Source: Acaryochloris sp. CCMEE 5410 (GTDB taxonomy: Bacteria > Cyanobacteriota > Cyanobacteriia > Thermosynechococcales > Thermosynechococcaceae). Taken from it: 64,000 nucleotides of DNA. The stretch is from contig NZ_AFEJ02000001.1 of the NCBI RefSeq assembly GCF_000238775.2, positions 1,054,001 through 1,118,000 on the forward strand. Reading direction: 5' to 3'. Under the pieces are notes generated by a model. The model saw only the letters and a list, made by a program, of their open reading frames with translations. It searched no databases and was not told the DNA's origin. Below are positions 34,316 to 40,200 of this stretch, piece by piece (position 1 is the first letter of the stretch; each line of letters opens with the position of its first letter). Made by a program: the position numbers and the translations under genes.

Positions 34316-35965
34316 ATGCAACCTAGTTATAGGCCTGATTTCTCAAGTTATCTACAATCTCTTGTTGATGACTATGAAGACTGGTGGAAACTTTACACAA
34401 TCACCGACACAGCAATCTTACCCAAAGCGAAGAAAGGTTCCATCGGCTCTCCGTTCGAGTTCGGATTAATGGTACATACGCTGAAACCAGATCCCTCAGT
34501 GAACTTGAACGATACCAAACATAATACTGAGCAATTAAACGTTCTAGAAGGCTTAGAGAAATACACTTTAGGCCTTGTCATACTTCAGGGAAAACCAGGC
34601 TCTGGAAAATCAACAGCATTAAAGAGACTACTTTTAGAAAAAGCCGAGATAGCACTTTCGACTTTAGGAACATCATCACAGCTTCTACAAGAGGAACCAC
34701 AAAAATTAATTTTTCAGGGAGAGGGGGAAAAGGCCCAACCTATCATTCCAGTTTTGGTAGAACTGCGTTATTACCAAACATCTATCTTTGATCTCATTCG
34801 TGACTTCTTCAAAAGTCATAGCCTCTCACTTGACCCCACCCAATTAGAAAAACTGCTATTTGAACGAAAATTCTTGCTATTGATAGATGGATTGAATGAA
34901 CTTCCATCTGAATCATCCTGGAATAACCTTTGTAAGTTTTGTCAAGATTACCCCCGGCTTCCCATAGTCGTAACCACGAGAGAGATAGGGAGTAGAGGAG
35001 ACCTTCCTGGTGTGGTTACAAAATTAAGGATGCTACCTCTTTCAAAATCACAGATGCGGCAATTTATTAGAGCCTATTTACCCGAACAAGGTGAACAGTT
35101 AATTAAACAATTGGACAATAGGCTACAGGACTTCGGTCAGACACCACTCTTGTTATGGATGTTGTGCGAATTGTTTCGACAAACAGAAACCATCCCTTCT
35201 AACTTGGGCTTGATTTTCCGCCACTTTACTCAAATTTATGAGAACAATCTCAAGCAAGATGTTCAAACTGATTCGGAGCGGCGATTATGGTCATCAACTC
35301 TTCAGTATCTAGCCTTCATCATGATGCAGGGCAGTGACCCAATAAATAAACCAACAGAGTTTTACATCACAATACCCAGAACTAAGGCACAATCAGCGCT
35401 CACTAGTTTTTTCAAAGGAAAAACTCCTTATCCAGAACAATCTGCTCTGTATCATTTAGATGATTTACTCAAGTACCACTTACTACAAACAAATGGGGAT
35501 CGAATTGAGTTCAAGCATCAATTGCTACAAGAATATTATGCTGCCGAGTATCTTTTTAATCAGCTTCATCATCTCAGTAAAGAACACCTGCAGAGCCACT
35601 ATCTAAACTATCTAAAGTGGACAGAGCCAATCTTGTTAATGATGAGTTTTTTAGAAACTCATAAGCAATCAATAAGGCTTGTAAAACTAGCATTCAATGT
35701 AGATTTGGCATTAGCAGCAAGATTAGCTGGAGCCTCTCCCAAGCAAGTTCAACCAAGAATTTTAGAATGGATGACTAGCAGAGAGCTATCACCGTGCCTA
35801 ACTATATATCTATTAGGCCTAACTAGTTCAGAATTAGCTATTCAATATTTGCGTCCGTGGTTTCAGAGTGATGATTTCTACGTTCGAGATGCAATTGTAG
35901 CTGCCCTATATGAAATTCAGAGTGAAGCTACAATGGGAGCATGTCACCTTTGCAGATTGTTTTGA
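34316..35965 (+). CDS. NACHT NTPase, N-terminal part of a NACHT-HEAT protein cut by ISKra4-type insertion
   Basis: The frame is host sequence up to 35934 and then reads about ten residues of the insertion. It carries a NACHT domain: Walker A QGKPGSGKSTALK (about 94), Walker B LLLIDGLNELP (about 190), the TTREIGSRGD sensor region (about 222) and a helical region with DRIEFKHQLLQEYYAAEYL (about 400), the winged-helix-type element of NACHT/STAND proteins. Beyond 500 it turns into HEAT repeats (FYVRDAIVAALYEI). STAND NTPases act as ligand-triggered switches, often in antiphage defence. Without the HEAT sensor the truncated form probably cannot be triggered normally. Removal of the insertion gives an 899-aa protein. 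Confidence 0.85.
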   Translation: MQPSYRPDFSSYLQSLVDDYEDWWKLYTITDTAILPKAKKGSIGSPFEFGLMVHTLKPDPSVNLNDTKHNTEQLNVLEGLEKYTLGLVILQGKPGSGKSTALKRLLLEKAEIALSTLGTSSQLLQEEPQKLIFQGEGEKAQPIIPVLVELRYYQTSIFDLIRDFFKSHSLSLDPTQLEKLLFERKFLLLIDGLNELPSESSWNNLCKFCQDYPRLPIVVTTREIGSRGDLPGVVTKLRMLPLSKSQMRQFIRAYLPEQGEQLIKQLDNRLQDFGQTPLLLWMLCELFRQTETIPSNLGLIFRHFTQIYENNLKQDVQTDSERRLWSSTLQYLAFIMMQGSDPINKPTEFYITIPRTKAQSALTSFFKGKTPYPEQSALYHLDDLLKYHLLQTNGDRIEFKHQLLQEYYAAEYLFNQLHHLSKEHLQSHYLNYLKWTEPILLMMSFLETHKQSIRLVKLAFNVDLALAARLAGASPKQVQPRILEWMTSRELSPCLTIYLLGLTSSELAIQYLRPWFQSDDFYVRDAIVAALYEIQSEATMGACHLCRLF

Positions 35966-37077
35966 AATCGTTCAGGATACAAGTGTTGCCCAGAAGTCTT
36001 CATCAATGAACTCCGAAAAAGCAGCTCAACTCAAAGTCCATCTTGATGCGATAGCCCAATTACTGTACGAAGAAAGCGATCCAGAGAACCTGAAGACGCT
36101 AGAAGGTATTGAGATGACGGTGCGTCAGCAAATTCAGACCCATGTCAGTCCCGAACTCGGTCATTTTTATCCGCACAGCTACTGGCACAGCAGCAGGCCG
36201 CAACCGACGCCTGAAAAGCACCTTGGGCGTTCTAAGCATTACAACTCAACAGGCACAGCATCTAGCCGTTTCCCCTATCGTCAAATCAGTCCTCATTTAG
36301 AGAATTGTTGCTTGCGCATCAGTGCCAATGTCTCCTATGCTCAAACTGCTAAAGATGTGGCTTATTTAACTGGGATTCAGGTACCAGCCAAACCCAGCAG
36401 CGATTGGTGCATCAACAACGGTTTCCTACCCCCAGGCTCATGAAGCTTTAACCGAAGTGAGTGTAGATGGTGGCAAAGTGCGCATCCGCACCCCTTTAGG
36501 ACACCCTTGTCAGTGGAAAGACTATAAAACCCTGGCAACGCATGTGGGACTCATCGCGGATTATCACAATAATGCCCGGCTCATTGACTGGACTCACCAG
36601 CAACCGTTAGCCTCTCCACTGACTTGTTTAGGGGATGGTCATGATGGCATTTGGAATATCATTCGTCAGCTGAGCATACCTGAGCAACGGCGAGAGATTC
36701 TGGACTGGTACCATCTGGTGGAAAATCTTCATAAGGTCGGTGGGTCCCTCAAACGTCTGCACCAGGCTGAGCAGCTCTTATGGCAGGGGAAGGTTGATGA
36801 AACCTTGGCTCTATTTGAGTCATTGAAGAAAAAGCAGGCCCAAGTCTTTTGCAACTATGTTCGCAAACATCGGCATCGGATCGTCAATTATGACTATTAC
36901 CAGAGTGAGCAAATCTGCTCTATTGGGTCTGGGGCTGTTGAATCTGCTATCAAGCAGATTAGTCGCAGAGTCAAAATTTCAGGGGCGCAGTGGAATGAAA
37001 GTAATGTCCCGCAAGTGCTGGCACATCGGTGTGCTTACCTCAATGGCTTAATTGGAATGCAAAGGTGACATGCTCCC
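35935..37077 (+). mobile_element. ISKra4-type insertion sequence with perfect ends and decayed transposase
   Basis: A 1143-bp element with perfect 20-bp terminal inverted repeats, GGGAGCATGTCACCTTTGCA at the left and its complement at the right. It is flanked by an exact 9-bp duplication, AGCTACAAT, at 35926-35934 and 37078-37086. GGG-starting ends and the transposase motif SVDGGKVRIRTP place it in the ISKra4 family. It interrupts the NACHT-HEAT gene in the same orientation. Confidence 0.93.
36006..37068 (+). pseudogene. ISKra4-family transposase, frameshifted
   Basis: Family-like sequence begins at the ATG at 36006 (MNSEKAAQLKVHL) but moves between frames. IRTATGTAAGRNRRLKS lies in a second frame (from about 36163), PYRQISPHLENCCLRISAN returns to the first (about 36275), TQQRLVHQQRF needs a third (about 36392), and QAHEALTEVSVDGGKV the next (about 36432). 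From 36457 the catalytic part is open to 37068, including CLGDGHDGIW and IGSGAVESAIKQ. At least four single-base indels, mostly in homopolymers, must have occurred, so a functional protein is unlikely without transposase supplied in trans. Confidence 0.8.
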
Positions 37078-38167
37078 AGCTACAATTCCAATACTAGTGC
37101 ATTTTCTTGATGATCCTGAAGGAGACATAGCTGGTAGGGCTGCGACCATTTTGGGTGAGATAGCTCGAGAACTGAATAGTACGGCAGCTATTTCAGCTTT
37201 AGGTGCAGCCATAACTCATCAGTCTGCTTATGTTCGCAACAATATCATTGATGCTTTGGGAAGCTCATATTCCAAAACGGCCATCCCTTTTCTAGAGGCA
37301 GCCTACTCAGATCCTGAATGGGAGAACCGACGGCGGGTGATGGATGCAATGGCCCAAATACCTAGCGAAGAAGTAATACCAACAATCGTTGAAGCTTTTC
37401 AGGATTACCATGTCAAGGTTCGTTATGCGGCAATGGAGGCACTAAGATATATCAGTGGAACAAATACTGGATATAAAGTTGCGATTTCCCACTCAAACAA
37501 TGTATTGCTTCACAATAGCGATCCAGTCATGCGCACAATTGCAGTTGAAGCATTGCAACACTCAGGGGATAAATCAGTACTGCCACTCCTAGAAGCATCA
37601 TTAACTACTGAAGATAATCCTTTTATTCGTTCTAAAATTAAAAATGCAATAGATAGATTTGAAGAACTACCTGCTAACATTCGGTCTCTACCACCTTGGG
37701 ACAGAATTCGCTGGCGGATAAAGAGAACAACAGGTAAACATAACGATAAAACATATCAAAAGTCACTGTCTCTAGACAGCCAGATAGACGAAGACATCTT
37801 AATTCAAAAATTGCAGACAAAGGGACATGCCGCTCGGTGTGAAGCCATTCGATTATTGAAGGAATGTAATAATAGTGAATTTATGTACTCAACAGCTATA
37901 AAAATTATTAGAAATCACTTATTTCAAGTTAAAGATTCAGAAGAAATATATAACATAGTGGAAGAGCTTCAATCCATTCAGAAGCAGTGTAATTTTTATC
38001 ACAATAATTTCTACCAGCTCGCTAAAGAATTCCCTTTAGAAATATTTTCTACTTGTTGGGGAATAAGCGCTATCAACATTAATGTTAAAAATGCTTATGG
38101 TATAGCTGGCCATGTTAGTGGGAATCAAGTTATTCACTCATCCTTAAGCAAGGAAGATACAGTATGA
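37070..38167 (+). CDS. HEAT-repeat C-terminal part of the interrupted NACHT-HEAT protein
   Basis: Host sequence resumes at 37087. The insertion's right end supplies an in-frame ATG at 37070, so a protein starting MLPATIPILVHFL could be made. It consists of HEAT repeats of about 30 residues (DDPEGDIAGRAATILGEIA, HQSAYVRNNIIDALG, DYHVKVRYAAMEALRY, NSDPVMRTIAVEALQHSG), then a divergent helical region (about 215-340). The tail is NAYGIAGHVSGNQVIHS, a glycine-rich motif echoed in the protein at 38708. HEAT arrays in NACHT proteins usually recognise the trigger. The stop overlaps the next start (ATGA), so translation is coupled. Confidence 0.75.
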   Translation: MLPATIPILVHFLDDPEGDIAGRAATILGEIARELNSTAAISALGAAITHQSAYVRNNIIDALGSSYSKTAIPFLEAAYSDPEWENRRRVMDAMAQIPSEEVIPTIVEAFQDYHVKVRYAAMEALRYISGTNTGYKVAISHSNNVLLHNSDPVMRTIAVEALQHSGDKSVLPLLEASLTTEDNPFIRSKIKNAIDRFEELPANIRSLPPWDRIRWRIKRTTGKHNDKTYQKSLSLDSQIDEDILIQKLQTKGHAARCEAIRLLKECNNSEFMYSTAIKIIRNHLFQVKDSEEIYNIVEELQSIQKQCNFYHNNFYQLAKEFPLEIFSTCWGISAININVKNAYGIAGHVSGNQVIHSSLSKEDTV

Positions 38168-38700
38168 CAAAAACACTAACAATTGAAATCCCTGACGAGC
38201 TAGAGCAGCAGTTATCAATCCAAGCTCAAGTGTTGCAAACCTCCCTTGAGAATGTGGTTTTGCGTTCACTATCTCAGTCTCTAAATTTCGCTCTTCCTTC
38301 TGCGACGCAAGCACAAAGTAGCCAGATTGAAGTGATTGAAATGCTGTTACGGTTACAAACAGCAGCAGACGCTGGAAATCCCACAGTTGAAGTTCATGCT
38401 ACCCCAGCCACAATCTATGTAGCGGATGTTATGCAACAACAGCAATTGATCGCAGATGTGCAGCAAATACAAGATAAGGCACAGCACTGCTTATTAATTC
38501 AGATTCCATCAGATCAACAGTTATCTAAAATCTGTACTGAGTTGCTAGAACGATTTCGTTCTACAAAAGAGAACGCAGTCAGTGAACCAGCCTTAGCAGC
38601 AATATTTTCTCCTATTGTTGAGGATTTACAATCAGCGGATGCCTCGATTCGTCTCAAAGCCGTAGAGAAGCTGAAAGATTTAGGACGCCAGTCAGCCTAA
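38164..38700 (+). CDS. Unknown protein with ribbon-helix-helix-like N-terminus
   Basis: This 178-aa protein begins LTIEIPDELEQQLSIQAQ followed by TSLENVVLRSL, the strand-helix-helix pattern of Arc/MetJ-type DNA-binding antitoxins. The middle (about 60-125) is an unfamiliar alpha-beta segment with QHCLLIQIPSD, and the end has one HEAT-like helix pair (DASIRLKAVEKLKDLG). Its start overlaps the upstream HEAT stop by four bases (ATGA), so it is co-translated with the NACHT-HEAT protein and probably regulates or assembles with it. No catalytic motif is visible. Confidence 0.65.
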   Translation: MTKTLTIEIPDELEQQLSIQAQVLQTSLENVVLRSLSQSLNFALPSATQAQSSQIEVIEMLLRLQTAADAGNPTVEVHATPATIYVADVMQQQQLIADVQQIQDKAQHCLLIQIPSDQQLSKICTELLERFRSTKENAVSEPALAAIFSPIVEDLQSADASIRLKAVEKLKDLGRQSA

Positions 38701-38707
38701 ATCTAAA

Positions 38708-39343
38708 ATGACTGTTCAAGATACGGCTATAGAAATCTTGTGTGAGGTTTTACTGACTGATACTTCACCGTTGATTCGTTGCTACGCTGCCCAAGCATTA
38801 GGTGAGATTGATCAAGATAATGCAGCAGCCATAACAGCGTTAGGAATAGCGGCTCGTCAAGATCCAGAAGCAATTGTTCGAACAATGGCCGTGTTAGCAA
38901 TCTCAAATCTCTGTCGTTCAACCCAACCTCAAAAAAAGATGCCCGAGAACAATACTCCTAAAGTGCAAATGACCTTCAATGCTCCGGTTAATTATCCAGT
39001 CGGTAATGTCGAAGGTGATATGGTGGTGAACGCTAATTCCTCTGAGCAGACGCAAGCTGTGTCAGATATGGCGCAGTTGTTGCAAGATCTCTATCAGCAG
39101 CATCCCCATGTATCCCAAGCCGGAGTAACCGACCTCCTCCAAACAGAAATCAAACAGATCCAGCAAGATCAGCCTCAACGTTGGCAAGCAATTTGGCGAG
39201 GTTTACTCAATCCTAAACGCTGGCGGAGTGGTGGCAAAGCGGCGCTGATTAAAGCGGGAGAGCATTTTACCGAAGAGAGTCTATGGGGTAAGGCTGCGAT
39301 CGCATTTTTAGAACAGTTCAGTGAAGAAACGGATTCAGAATAA
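38708..39343 (+). CDS. HEAT protein with glycine-rich motif and C-terminal helical domain
   Basis: This 211-aa protein has one and a half HEAT repeats (TSPLIRCYAAQALGEID, PEAIVRTMAVLAISNL), then a segment MTFNAPVNYPVGNVEGDMVV (about 90-109). It ends in a helical C-terminus with WRGLLNPKRWRSGGKAALIK and FTEESLWGKAAIAFLEQF, a tail I have seen appended to several cyanobacterial NACHT- or repeat-containing proteins. The central motif parallels the tail of the NACHT-HEAT protein. It starts eight bases after the preceding stop, so the three genes form one operon. Confidence 0.65.
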   Translation: MTVQDTAIEILCEVLLTDTSPLIRCYAAQALGEIDQDNAAAITALGIAARQDPEAIVRTMAVLAISNLCRSTQPQKKMPENNTPKVQMTFNAPVNYPVGNVEGDMVVNANSSEQTQAVSDMAQLLQDLYQQHPHVSQAGVTDLLQTEIKQIQQDQPQRWQAIWRGLLNPKRWRSGGKAALIKAGEHFTEESLWGKAAIAFLEQFSEETDSE

Positions 39344-39492: not shown

Positions 39493-39789
39493 ATGACGGC
39501 AAAAGAGCGACTCCTTCGTGAAGTTGAGCAGGCACCCGAGGAACTCTTGGAAGAGGTCTTAAATTTCTTACTCTTCACAAAGTCGAAACAAGCAACTGAG
39601 CAGCCTCTACCTCATAACAGTGCAGTGCAAACTGCCCATGAAGCAAAAGAGACCAATAGTACATCCCTTATTTGGGATAGCTTTTCCAGCTTTACTGAGA
39701 ACATCCCTGAGGACGTCCTAGATCAGCTGCCGACAGATGGCGCTGAGCAACACGACCACTACATCTATGGAACGCCTAAACGGCCCTGA
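39493..39789 (+). CDS. DUF2281-type antitoxin-like protein
   Basis: This 98-aa protein starts with TAKERLLREVEQAPEELLEEVLNFLLFTKSK, the amphipathic helix pair found in DUF2281 proteins that precede PIN-domain genes. The remainder is low-complexity and acidic. The stop codon overlaps the start of the next gene (TGATG at 39787-39791), the normal coupling of a toxin-antitoxin pair. The antitoxin is intact while the toxin is frameshifted. Confidence 0.65.
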   Translation: MTAKERLLREVEQAPEELLEEVLNFLLFTKSKQATEQPLPHNSAVQTAHEAKETNSTSLIWDSFSSFTENIPEDVLDQLPTDGAEQHDHYIYGTPKRP

Positions 39790-40200
39790 TGCAGCTTATT
39801 TTCGCGGATACGTTTTACTGGACAGCTTTAATCAACCCTCGCGATCAGTGGCATCAGCAGGTTAAAGCTTTAAGCCCTAAGTTATTTCAACAACATTTGG
39901 TCACAACGGATGAGGTCTTGATTGAGTTTCTCAACTTTTTCTCTACCTCTAATGCCTATATGCGTAATGGCGTGGCCGAATCAAGTGCAGAATATTTTGA
40001 ATAGTCGTCAGGTTCAGGTTATGGCTCAAACTCGTGATTCTTTCTTAGATGGGTTGAGTCTGTATGCCCAACGGCTAGACAAAGGTTACAGTCTGACAGA
40101 TTGCATCTCTATGCAGACAATGAAGCGACAAGGAATCATGCAAATACTCACTCATGATAAGCACTTTGCACAAGAGGGCTTTGAAATTCTCTTGAAATAA
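39789..40200 (+). pseudogene. PIN-domain toxin, frameshifted
   Basis: The first part, LIFADTFYWTALINPRDQWH, carries the first PIN aspartate, and VTTDEVLIEFLNFF the conserved Glu. After MRN (about 39967) the frame must shift by one base to continue AWPNQVQNILN through DKGYSLTDCISMQTMKRQG and LTHDKHFAQEGFEILL to the stop at 40200, which holds the late catalytic aspartates. The unshifted frame ends at 40004 after 71 codons. The combined length of about 137 aa is normal for PIN ribonucleases. A single-base indel has inactivated the toxin unless frameshifting occurs. Confidence 0.75.

Follow-up and report, generated by a model that had tools for sequence, protein, structure and literature searches.

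Short motifs matched between neighbouring sensor and five-helix effector genes of cyanobacteria: a putative homotypic address signal

Two neighbouring genes in a 64,000-nucleotide stretch of Acaryochloris sp. CCMEE 5410 (referred to as the window) encode a common glycine-rich string. We read this string, with a probability that we put at about 0.7, as a short homotypic address motif, most likely amyloid-like, through which a sensor would recruit and activate an effector with a five-helix domain. The evidence comes from matched motifs in the sensor and effector genes of many cyanobacterial loci.

Results

The original prediction described a G-N/H-V-x-G-D/N motif shared by the tail of a NACHT-HEAT protein and the third protein of its operon (P3), and both strings were confirmed as written, with NAYGIAGHVSGNQVIHSS lying close to the end of ORF 37052-38167 and FNAPVNYPVGNVEGDMVVNAN within ORF 38708-39343 (Table 1). 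The NACHT-HEAT protein had been taken for a single ORF, which is not so. An ISKra4-family insertion element divides the NACHT part from the HEAT part, and the gene does not encode an intact protein with both NACHT and repeats here. The NACHT domain of the first part passed the Pfam cut-off (36.4 bits versus 26.7). The element's transposase is spread over two reading frames (ORFs 35910-36443 and ORF 36457-37068; NF033572 E values of 5.8e-11 and 1.2e-59), due to either decay or programmed frameshifting, and both ORFs scored below the whole-protein cut-off of NF033572 because each represents a part only. As the sensor is interrupted by this element, the window copy is probably non-working, and the system is probably either inactive or operating without NACHT control. 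Relatives of the window HEAT part (E ≤ 1e-10) were detected in 3 of 57 other genomes, all of them confined to the HEAT repeats of residues 9 to 207.

P2-like ORFs were recognised by eye immediately 5' of the P3 relative in loci L044 and L046; L047 has none at this place. By eye, P2 (38164-38700) has a ribbon-helix-helix-type start and a HEAT-like end. A small two-gene unit at 39493-40200, 3' of P3, has the appearance of an antitoxin and a toxin, the latter presumably of the PIN type. Its second gene is broken into two reading frames of 71 and 92 aa in the window, and an open 136-aa gene of L044 (5583-5990) occupies the place equivalent to that of the window's two-frame toxin-like gene.

Table 1. 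Features of the sensor-P3 region of the window
Feature	Position	Strand	Basis
NACHT STAND NTPase part of sensor gene, truncated by insertion element	34316..35965	+	Pfam NACHT, E 6e-9
Direct repeat GCTACAA, 7 bp, left copy beside insertion element	35927..35933	.	Sequence read
ISKra4-family insertion element splitting sensor gene	35934..37078	+	NCBIfam NF033572; 21-nt perfect inverted repeats
Direct repeat GCTACAA, 7 bp, right copy	37079..37085	.	Sequence read
HEAT-repeat part of sensor gene, bearing C-terminal motif	37052..38167	+	Pfam HEAT_2, E 4.3e-28
Sensor C-terminal motif AYGIAGHVSGNQVIH	38093..38137	+	Motif HMM from non-window sequences, E 7e-4
Second operon protein P2, 178 aa, open	38164..38700	+	ORF lists
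Third operon protein P3, 211 aa, open: HEAT repeats, motif, C-terminal helical domain	38708..39343	+	Pfam HEAT, E 2.3e-8; AF2 model
In-frame ATG (P3 Met78) directly 5' of motif, candidate internal start	38939..38941	+	Invariance in aligned sequences
P3 motif KVQMTFNAPVNYPVGNVEGDMVVNAN	38960..39037	+	Motif HMM, E 3.5e-11; predicted disordered
P3 C-terminal five-helix domain, putative effector	39041..39340	+	AF2 pLDDT 72.9, pTM 0.62

The AF2 model of P3 consists of HEAT repeats at residues 1 to 71, a linker at residues 72 to 110 that contains the motif and is predicted to be disordered (pLDDT < 50), and then a five-helix C-terminal domain (the C-domain). A folded adaptor domain, which had been proposed as the shared segment, was ruled out by this predicted disorder, and a short templating or amyloid-type motif therefore fits better. 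For the P3 C-domain, neither Pfam nor NCBIfam yielded a family exceeding its cut-off, Foldseek gave no match to its fold at E ≤ 1e-3, and the best match of its sequence in the PDB had an E value of 0.37. The VIA-align matches were TetR-type helical bundles with a best Z of 5.9, which was uninformative. A transmembrane or pore segment was rejected: a hydrophobic stretch of transmembrane strength was present in only 3 of 54 C-domains, and a membrane-pore role is therefore unsupported by hydropathy. Families of effector-associated domains (EADs) are represented in Pfam, and none was among the Pfam matches of P3 and ten effectors. When 10 proteins were compared with the PADLOC anti-phage library, 3 (P3 included) were without a match and the other 7 gave weak or repeat-driven matches. 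The helical domain would be the killing or signalling part of the protein.

Pairwise local alignment of the two window motifs gave a score of 33, which was equalled or beaten by 33 of 72 other loci, and by this measure the window pair alone is no better than chance. By profile, the pair is above chance. A motif HMM of 11 non-window sequences, which we chose from other loci of the same motif type, was run over six frames of the 64 kb and placed P3 first (E = 3.5e-11) and the NACHT-HEAT tail second (E = 7e-4), with the next match at E = 0.18. A 29-aa composite motif query of the whole 8.09-Mb genome returned two matches only at E ≤ 10, namely, P3 (1.8e-9) and the NACHT-HEAT tail (1.16), separated by about 0.8 kb. 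In a whole-genome profile search at E ≤ 0.01, P3 was found in the source genome and the NACHT-HEAT tail was missed. Matching motifs in adjacent sensor and effector genes were thus detected for the window pair by profile but not by pairwise score, and were detected for the set of loci described below.

The P3 C-domain was present in 47 of 386 cyanobacterial genomes (E ≤ 1e-6). Of the 75 loci gathered, window included, 73 yielded 74 C-domain ORFs, while L078 and L114 were without such an ORF and were excluded. The scan of genome contigs gave 4 loci only, and the statistics therefore rest mainly on loci from the phylum search. For each ORF, the 45 residues before the C-domain (the linker) were used to seek the best local match in the other genes of the same locus, with a threshold score of 45, and ORFs were classed by length only as short (<260 aa) or long (≥260 aa). 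Long C-domain ORFs were often sensor-fused, a known sensor domain having been checked in some (Roc-COR in L050 and pentapeptide repeats in L063 and L065). A neighbour in the same locus was matched by 36 of the 74 linkers (28 of 40 short and 8 of 34 long), leaving 12 of the 40 short ORFs without a match at threshold; 5% of pairs with foreign loci reached a score of 45. After removal of linkers ≥60% alike (n = 54), 22 were matched, comprising 20 of 30 short and 2 of 24 long ORFs (Fisher p 1.6e-5, with L113 included); the match of L113 is a TPR-repeat artefact and not a motif, reducing the short count from 20/30 to 19/30, and the motif pair of L052, which lies outside the 45-residue linker, was scored as unmatched. 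In this non-redundant set, 10 of the 30 short ORFs had no match at threshold.

The sum of own-locus scores (the trace) of the non-redundant set was 2921, versus a mean of 1757 (SD 56, maximum 2097) in 20,000 permutations, giving a z of 20.7. Shuffled linkers reached the threshold in 15 of 1480 comparisons, and for segments of other genes, with 1460 comparisons per kind, the count was 74 for random, 96 for N-terminal and 87 for C-terminal segments. Among the 46 matches of the full set, the matched stretch lay at the N-terminus of the partner in 21, at the C-terminus in 23 and in the middle in 2. The non-redundant set had 25 matches (that of L113 included), of which 24 were terminal, compared to about 33% expected if uniform. 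These results support that part of the original prediction in which the motif has a homotypic recruiting role, and suggest that an operon-specific matched tag directs each effector to the sensor that belongs to it.

At least ten unrelated N/G-rich motif types, sorted by eye, precede the C-domain. They include a GxVxG(D/N) type in the window and in L044, L046, L080, L094, L097 and L107; YDLRGAxIGN in L045; FPxAxxVQ followed by TYxEHN in L047 and L062; QFxGxxVNADTV followed by QIGGNITN in L063, L065 and L067; NTxGGNYNE followed by QGNYY in L083, L084, L087 and L116; NxGDVTIxGxQxG in L052 and L111; and SPxVxGxVxG in L102 and L105. The overall composition of the motifs was 14% N, 11% G and 2.5% L, and the RHIM core [VI]Q[VIL]G was found in 0 of the 54 non-redundant linkers. 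In 71 pairs, C-domains with ≥50% identity were preceded by linkers scoring <45 against each other, each matched to its own neighbour, and in 36 pairs C-domains with <35% identity were preceded by linkers scoring ≥60; these pairs are mutually non-independent and are defined by a score threshold. As judged from these alignments, motif and C-domain recombine independently, and the GxVxG motif of the window is one among many interchangeable types.

A GxVxG profile search of the 386 cyanobacterial genomes at E ≤ 0.01 detected 18 matches in 13 genomes, 5 of which had two matches in different ORFs at most about 0.7 kb apart; 9 of the 18 matches, and 4 of the 5 pairs among them, had themselves been profile input. 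The matches independent of the profile were the fifth pair, in L120, and seven others, with G348 being marginal (E 0.0096). Recurrence of the motif type near NACHT genes in other cyanobacteria, which the original prediction had put forward, was therefore borne out, including by a pair outside the profile. Five loci independent of the profile, L120 to L124, were examined. In L120 the motif is carried by a NACHT-HEAT tail and by an effector encoded convergently, and L123 has an effector with tagged neighbours (by eye). L122 has a NACHT-like ORF with an internal motif and L124 a 452-aa ORF with a motif, no pair being seen in either locus, and for the matches in L088 and L091 there was no neighbour matching at threshold. 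In L121 the motif is at the tail of one protein and the start of its neighbour. The ORF at L121:5365-5859 has a GxVxG-type motif joined to a different C-terminal domain and adjoins a protein with a matching tail; judging by this locus, these tags are probably shared by further effector domains.

The partner proteins comprised NACHT-HEAT, NB-ARC-TPR, LRR-Roc-COR, TIR-like, pentapeptide, WD40 and DUF6232 classes. A Pfam scan (E ≤ 0.001) of 45 partners, a redundant set, detected NACHT in 11, pentapeptide repeats in 6, HEAT_2 in 6, DUF6232 in 5, NB-ARC in 5, TPR in 3 and AAA_35 in 3. These 45 were made up of 41 of the 45 distinct full-set partners and those of L052, L120, L121 and L123, with L063:3-677, L065:11641-12129, L074:3-1262 and the partner of L113 left out. 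Among 46 length-matched neighbours from the same loci, NACHT was detected in at most 1, AAA_35 in 4 and HEAT_2 in 3. The enrichment near NACHT proteins that the original prediction had named as its check was therefore observed (11/45 matched partners versus ≤1/46 controls; Fisher p 0.002).

The layout of the window, with a NACHT-HEAT protein bearing a C-terminal motif, was also found in L052 (where NACHT scored under the curated cut-off), L062, L107, L111 and L120. The TIR match of L046 is likewise below cut-off. An LRR-Roc-COR protein is separate in L045, with a motif near its C-terminus, and is fused to motif and C-domain in L050, so that one architecture appears from its sequence in both a split and a fused version. 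A protein annotated as 'COR domain-containing' on a plasmid of Acaryochloris marina MBIC10699 also terminates in the C-domain. In L044, from an Acaryochloris MAG, P2-P3 occupy an equivalent chromosomal place and are followed by similar genes, but the sensor beside them is another NACHT protein, encoded divergently, and the motif pair of this locus consists of NVVGNVEGDMVVNA at the NACHT N-terminus and NIVGNVEGDMVVNA in P3. On plasmid pTCL26-01_A of Nostoc sp. TCL26-01, one motif type is found in five consecutive genes (FD725_RS29810 to RS29830), the products of which are two pentapeptide proteins, a WD40, a NACHT and an AAA-like protein. This tagged cluster is preceded by genes for XisH and XisI (L125:5213-5946). 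On plasmid B of Trichormus variabilis ATCC 29413, the tail of a DUF6232 protein (AVA_RS27850; DNSIKVGKNIGSPLNTGHIGGDVVNQV) is paired with the start of an effector (AVA_RS27845; MEDRSIKIGKNIGSPSNTGYIGGDVINEV). DUF6232 proteins, such as that at L128:4347-4907, have hydrophobic stretches (by eye) and are repeatedly tagged partners, a pattern that suggests membrane-located sensors.

Met78 of P3 and the nearby T-P-K were invariant in 5 of 5 aligned sequences, and no Shine-Dalgarno 4-mer was found upstream of this codon. Of the 46 ORFs with ≥75 residues before the C-domain, 40 contained an in-frame ATG in the stretch from 75 to 15 codons ahead of this domain, compared to a background of 217 of 570 windows; as these windows overlap, the significance of the contrast is indicative only. 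A start-like ATG (M[SAPTG][EDNGQ]) was present in this stretch in 25 of 34 such ORFs of the non-redundant set. The proportion of ATGs that were start-like was 28/56 in the pre-C-domain stretch versus 10/160 elsewhere in the same ORFs, and a Shine-Dalgarno 5-mer at the proper spacing preceded 7 of 28 start-like ATGs versus 10 of 160 elsewhere; for the first ATG of short effectors, this figure was 11 of 23. Six ORFs had AAGGAG eight bases upstream of the ATG. The ATG before the motif may function as an internal start or may be the relic of a stand-alone gene.

Discussion

We propose that a sensor, here NACHT-HEAT, bears one copy of the motif, usually at a terminus, and that a small effector bears a second copy directly before its five-helix domain. 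Once triggered, the sensor would oligomerise and bring its motifs together, and these clustered motifs would template or recruit the like motifs of the effector, most likely as an amyloid-like beta stack. The helical domains would thereby be clustered and switched on. As the motif type differs between operons, each sensor would call its own effector and the systems would be kept apart.

Contact between homotypic motifs may occur through ordinary beta-augmentation or short-range dimerisation, with no amyloid-like templated fibre. This would be compatible with the same genetic evidence, and the lack of a canonical RHIM core in all 54 linkers is in its favour; the N/G-rich, leucine-poor, disordered motifs of ~25 residues in sensors and effectors nevertheless resemble the amyloid signalling motifs described in excerpts of PMC7889193, PMC8086366 and PMC12261475, and we consider a contact of this kind rather unlikely. 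We judge it improbable that the matched segments are relics of duplication or shuffling, left as linker copies by a mobile cassette of Met, motif and domain and having no recruiting function. Retention of a start-like Met inside many longer genes and the presence of the module on plasmids would be expected of such a cassette, but the partners counted bear the motif without a detected C-domain and mostly at the termini of unrelated proteins, and C-domains that are ≥50% identical keep different motifs, each matching its own neighbour. Furthermore, relics would be expected to decay and to be equally common beside long and short ORFs, whereas 2/24 and 20/30, respectively, were matched. Coincidence between low-complexity glycine-rich strings would account for the pairwise score of the window pair alone but is scarcely credible, as it is contradicted by the permutation test, by the 15/1480 shuffled linkers at threshold versus 36/74 real ones, and by a profile without window sequences that ranked exactly P3 and the NACHT-HEAT tail first.

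A broader extension of the address-motif reading is possible, and we offer it tentatively. The motif and the new five-helix effector, with its own start codon, may form an undescribed cyanobacterial plug-in module in which an interchangeable prion-like motif docks by motif match with nearly every class of sensor (NACHT, NB-ARC, LRR-Roc-COR, TIR, pentapeptide, WD40 or DUF6232). Fused genes might still yield a free effector from the internal start, so that one gene would provide both the seed and the polymerising substrate, and the at least ten motif types might act as an orthogonal code within the phylum.

If the address-motif reading is right, amyloid-type immune signalling is not confined to pairs of NLR and Bell proteins but takes in far more kinds of bacterial sensor, Roc-COR (LRRK-like) proteins among them. 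The reading would also offer short, apparently orthogonal motifs of natural origin for probing how signalling specificity is encoded and a function-linked context for a domain without a Pfam or NCBIfam family above cut-off. The Trichormus variabilis ATCC 29413 pair makes the proposal testable in a laboratory cyanobacterium.

A literature search that covered few subscription papers found no prior description of this tag/effector system, and three known groups were compared with it. In the EADs, or bacterial Death-like domains, copies in a core component and in an effector are proposed to recruit each other, and these are folded domains, 9 of 12 being alpha-helical, according to excerpts of the work of Kaur et al. 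(2020, 2021; PMC7159879, PMC8195603). The principle is the same here, but the shared part is a predicted disordered motif of ~25 residues and not a folded domain. Metazoan RHIM, fungal PP and BASS3 motifs are likewise short G/N-rich signalling motifs of cell-death pathways; membership of the RHIM/BASS3 group was rejected, as the (I/V)Q(I/V/L)G core is missing from all 54 non-redundant linkers.

The closest likeness is to the motifs known as BASS (bacterial amyloid signalling sequences). As described in excerpts of PMC7889193, PMC8086366 and PMC12261475, these are short motifs of ten families that are repeated in adjoining NLR sensor and effector genes, mainly in actinobacteria and cyanobacteria, with TIR and CHAT associations too; the effector (Bell) domain comes first with the motif at its C-terminus, and the NLR motif is at the N-terminus. 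The systems have in common a matching short motif in neighbouring sensor and effector genes and the same proposed logic. In the present effectors, however, the motif precedes a helical domain, apparently one other than Bell, and the sensor motif is C-terminal in the window and in 23 of 46 matches, unlike the N-terminal motif of BASS NLRs. The present partners extend to Roc-COR, pentapeptide, WD40 and DUF6232 proteins as well. By these descriptions, the present tags are read as akin to the published BASS motifs, with a different effector layout.
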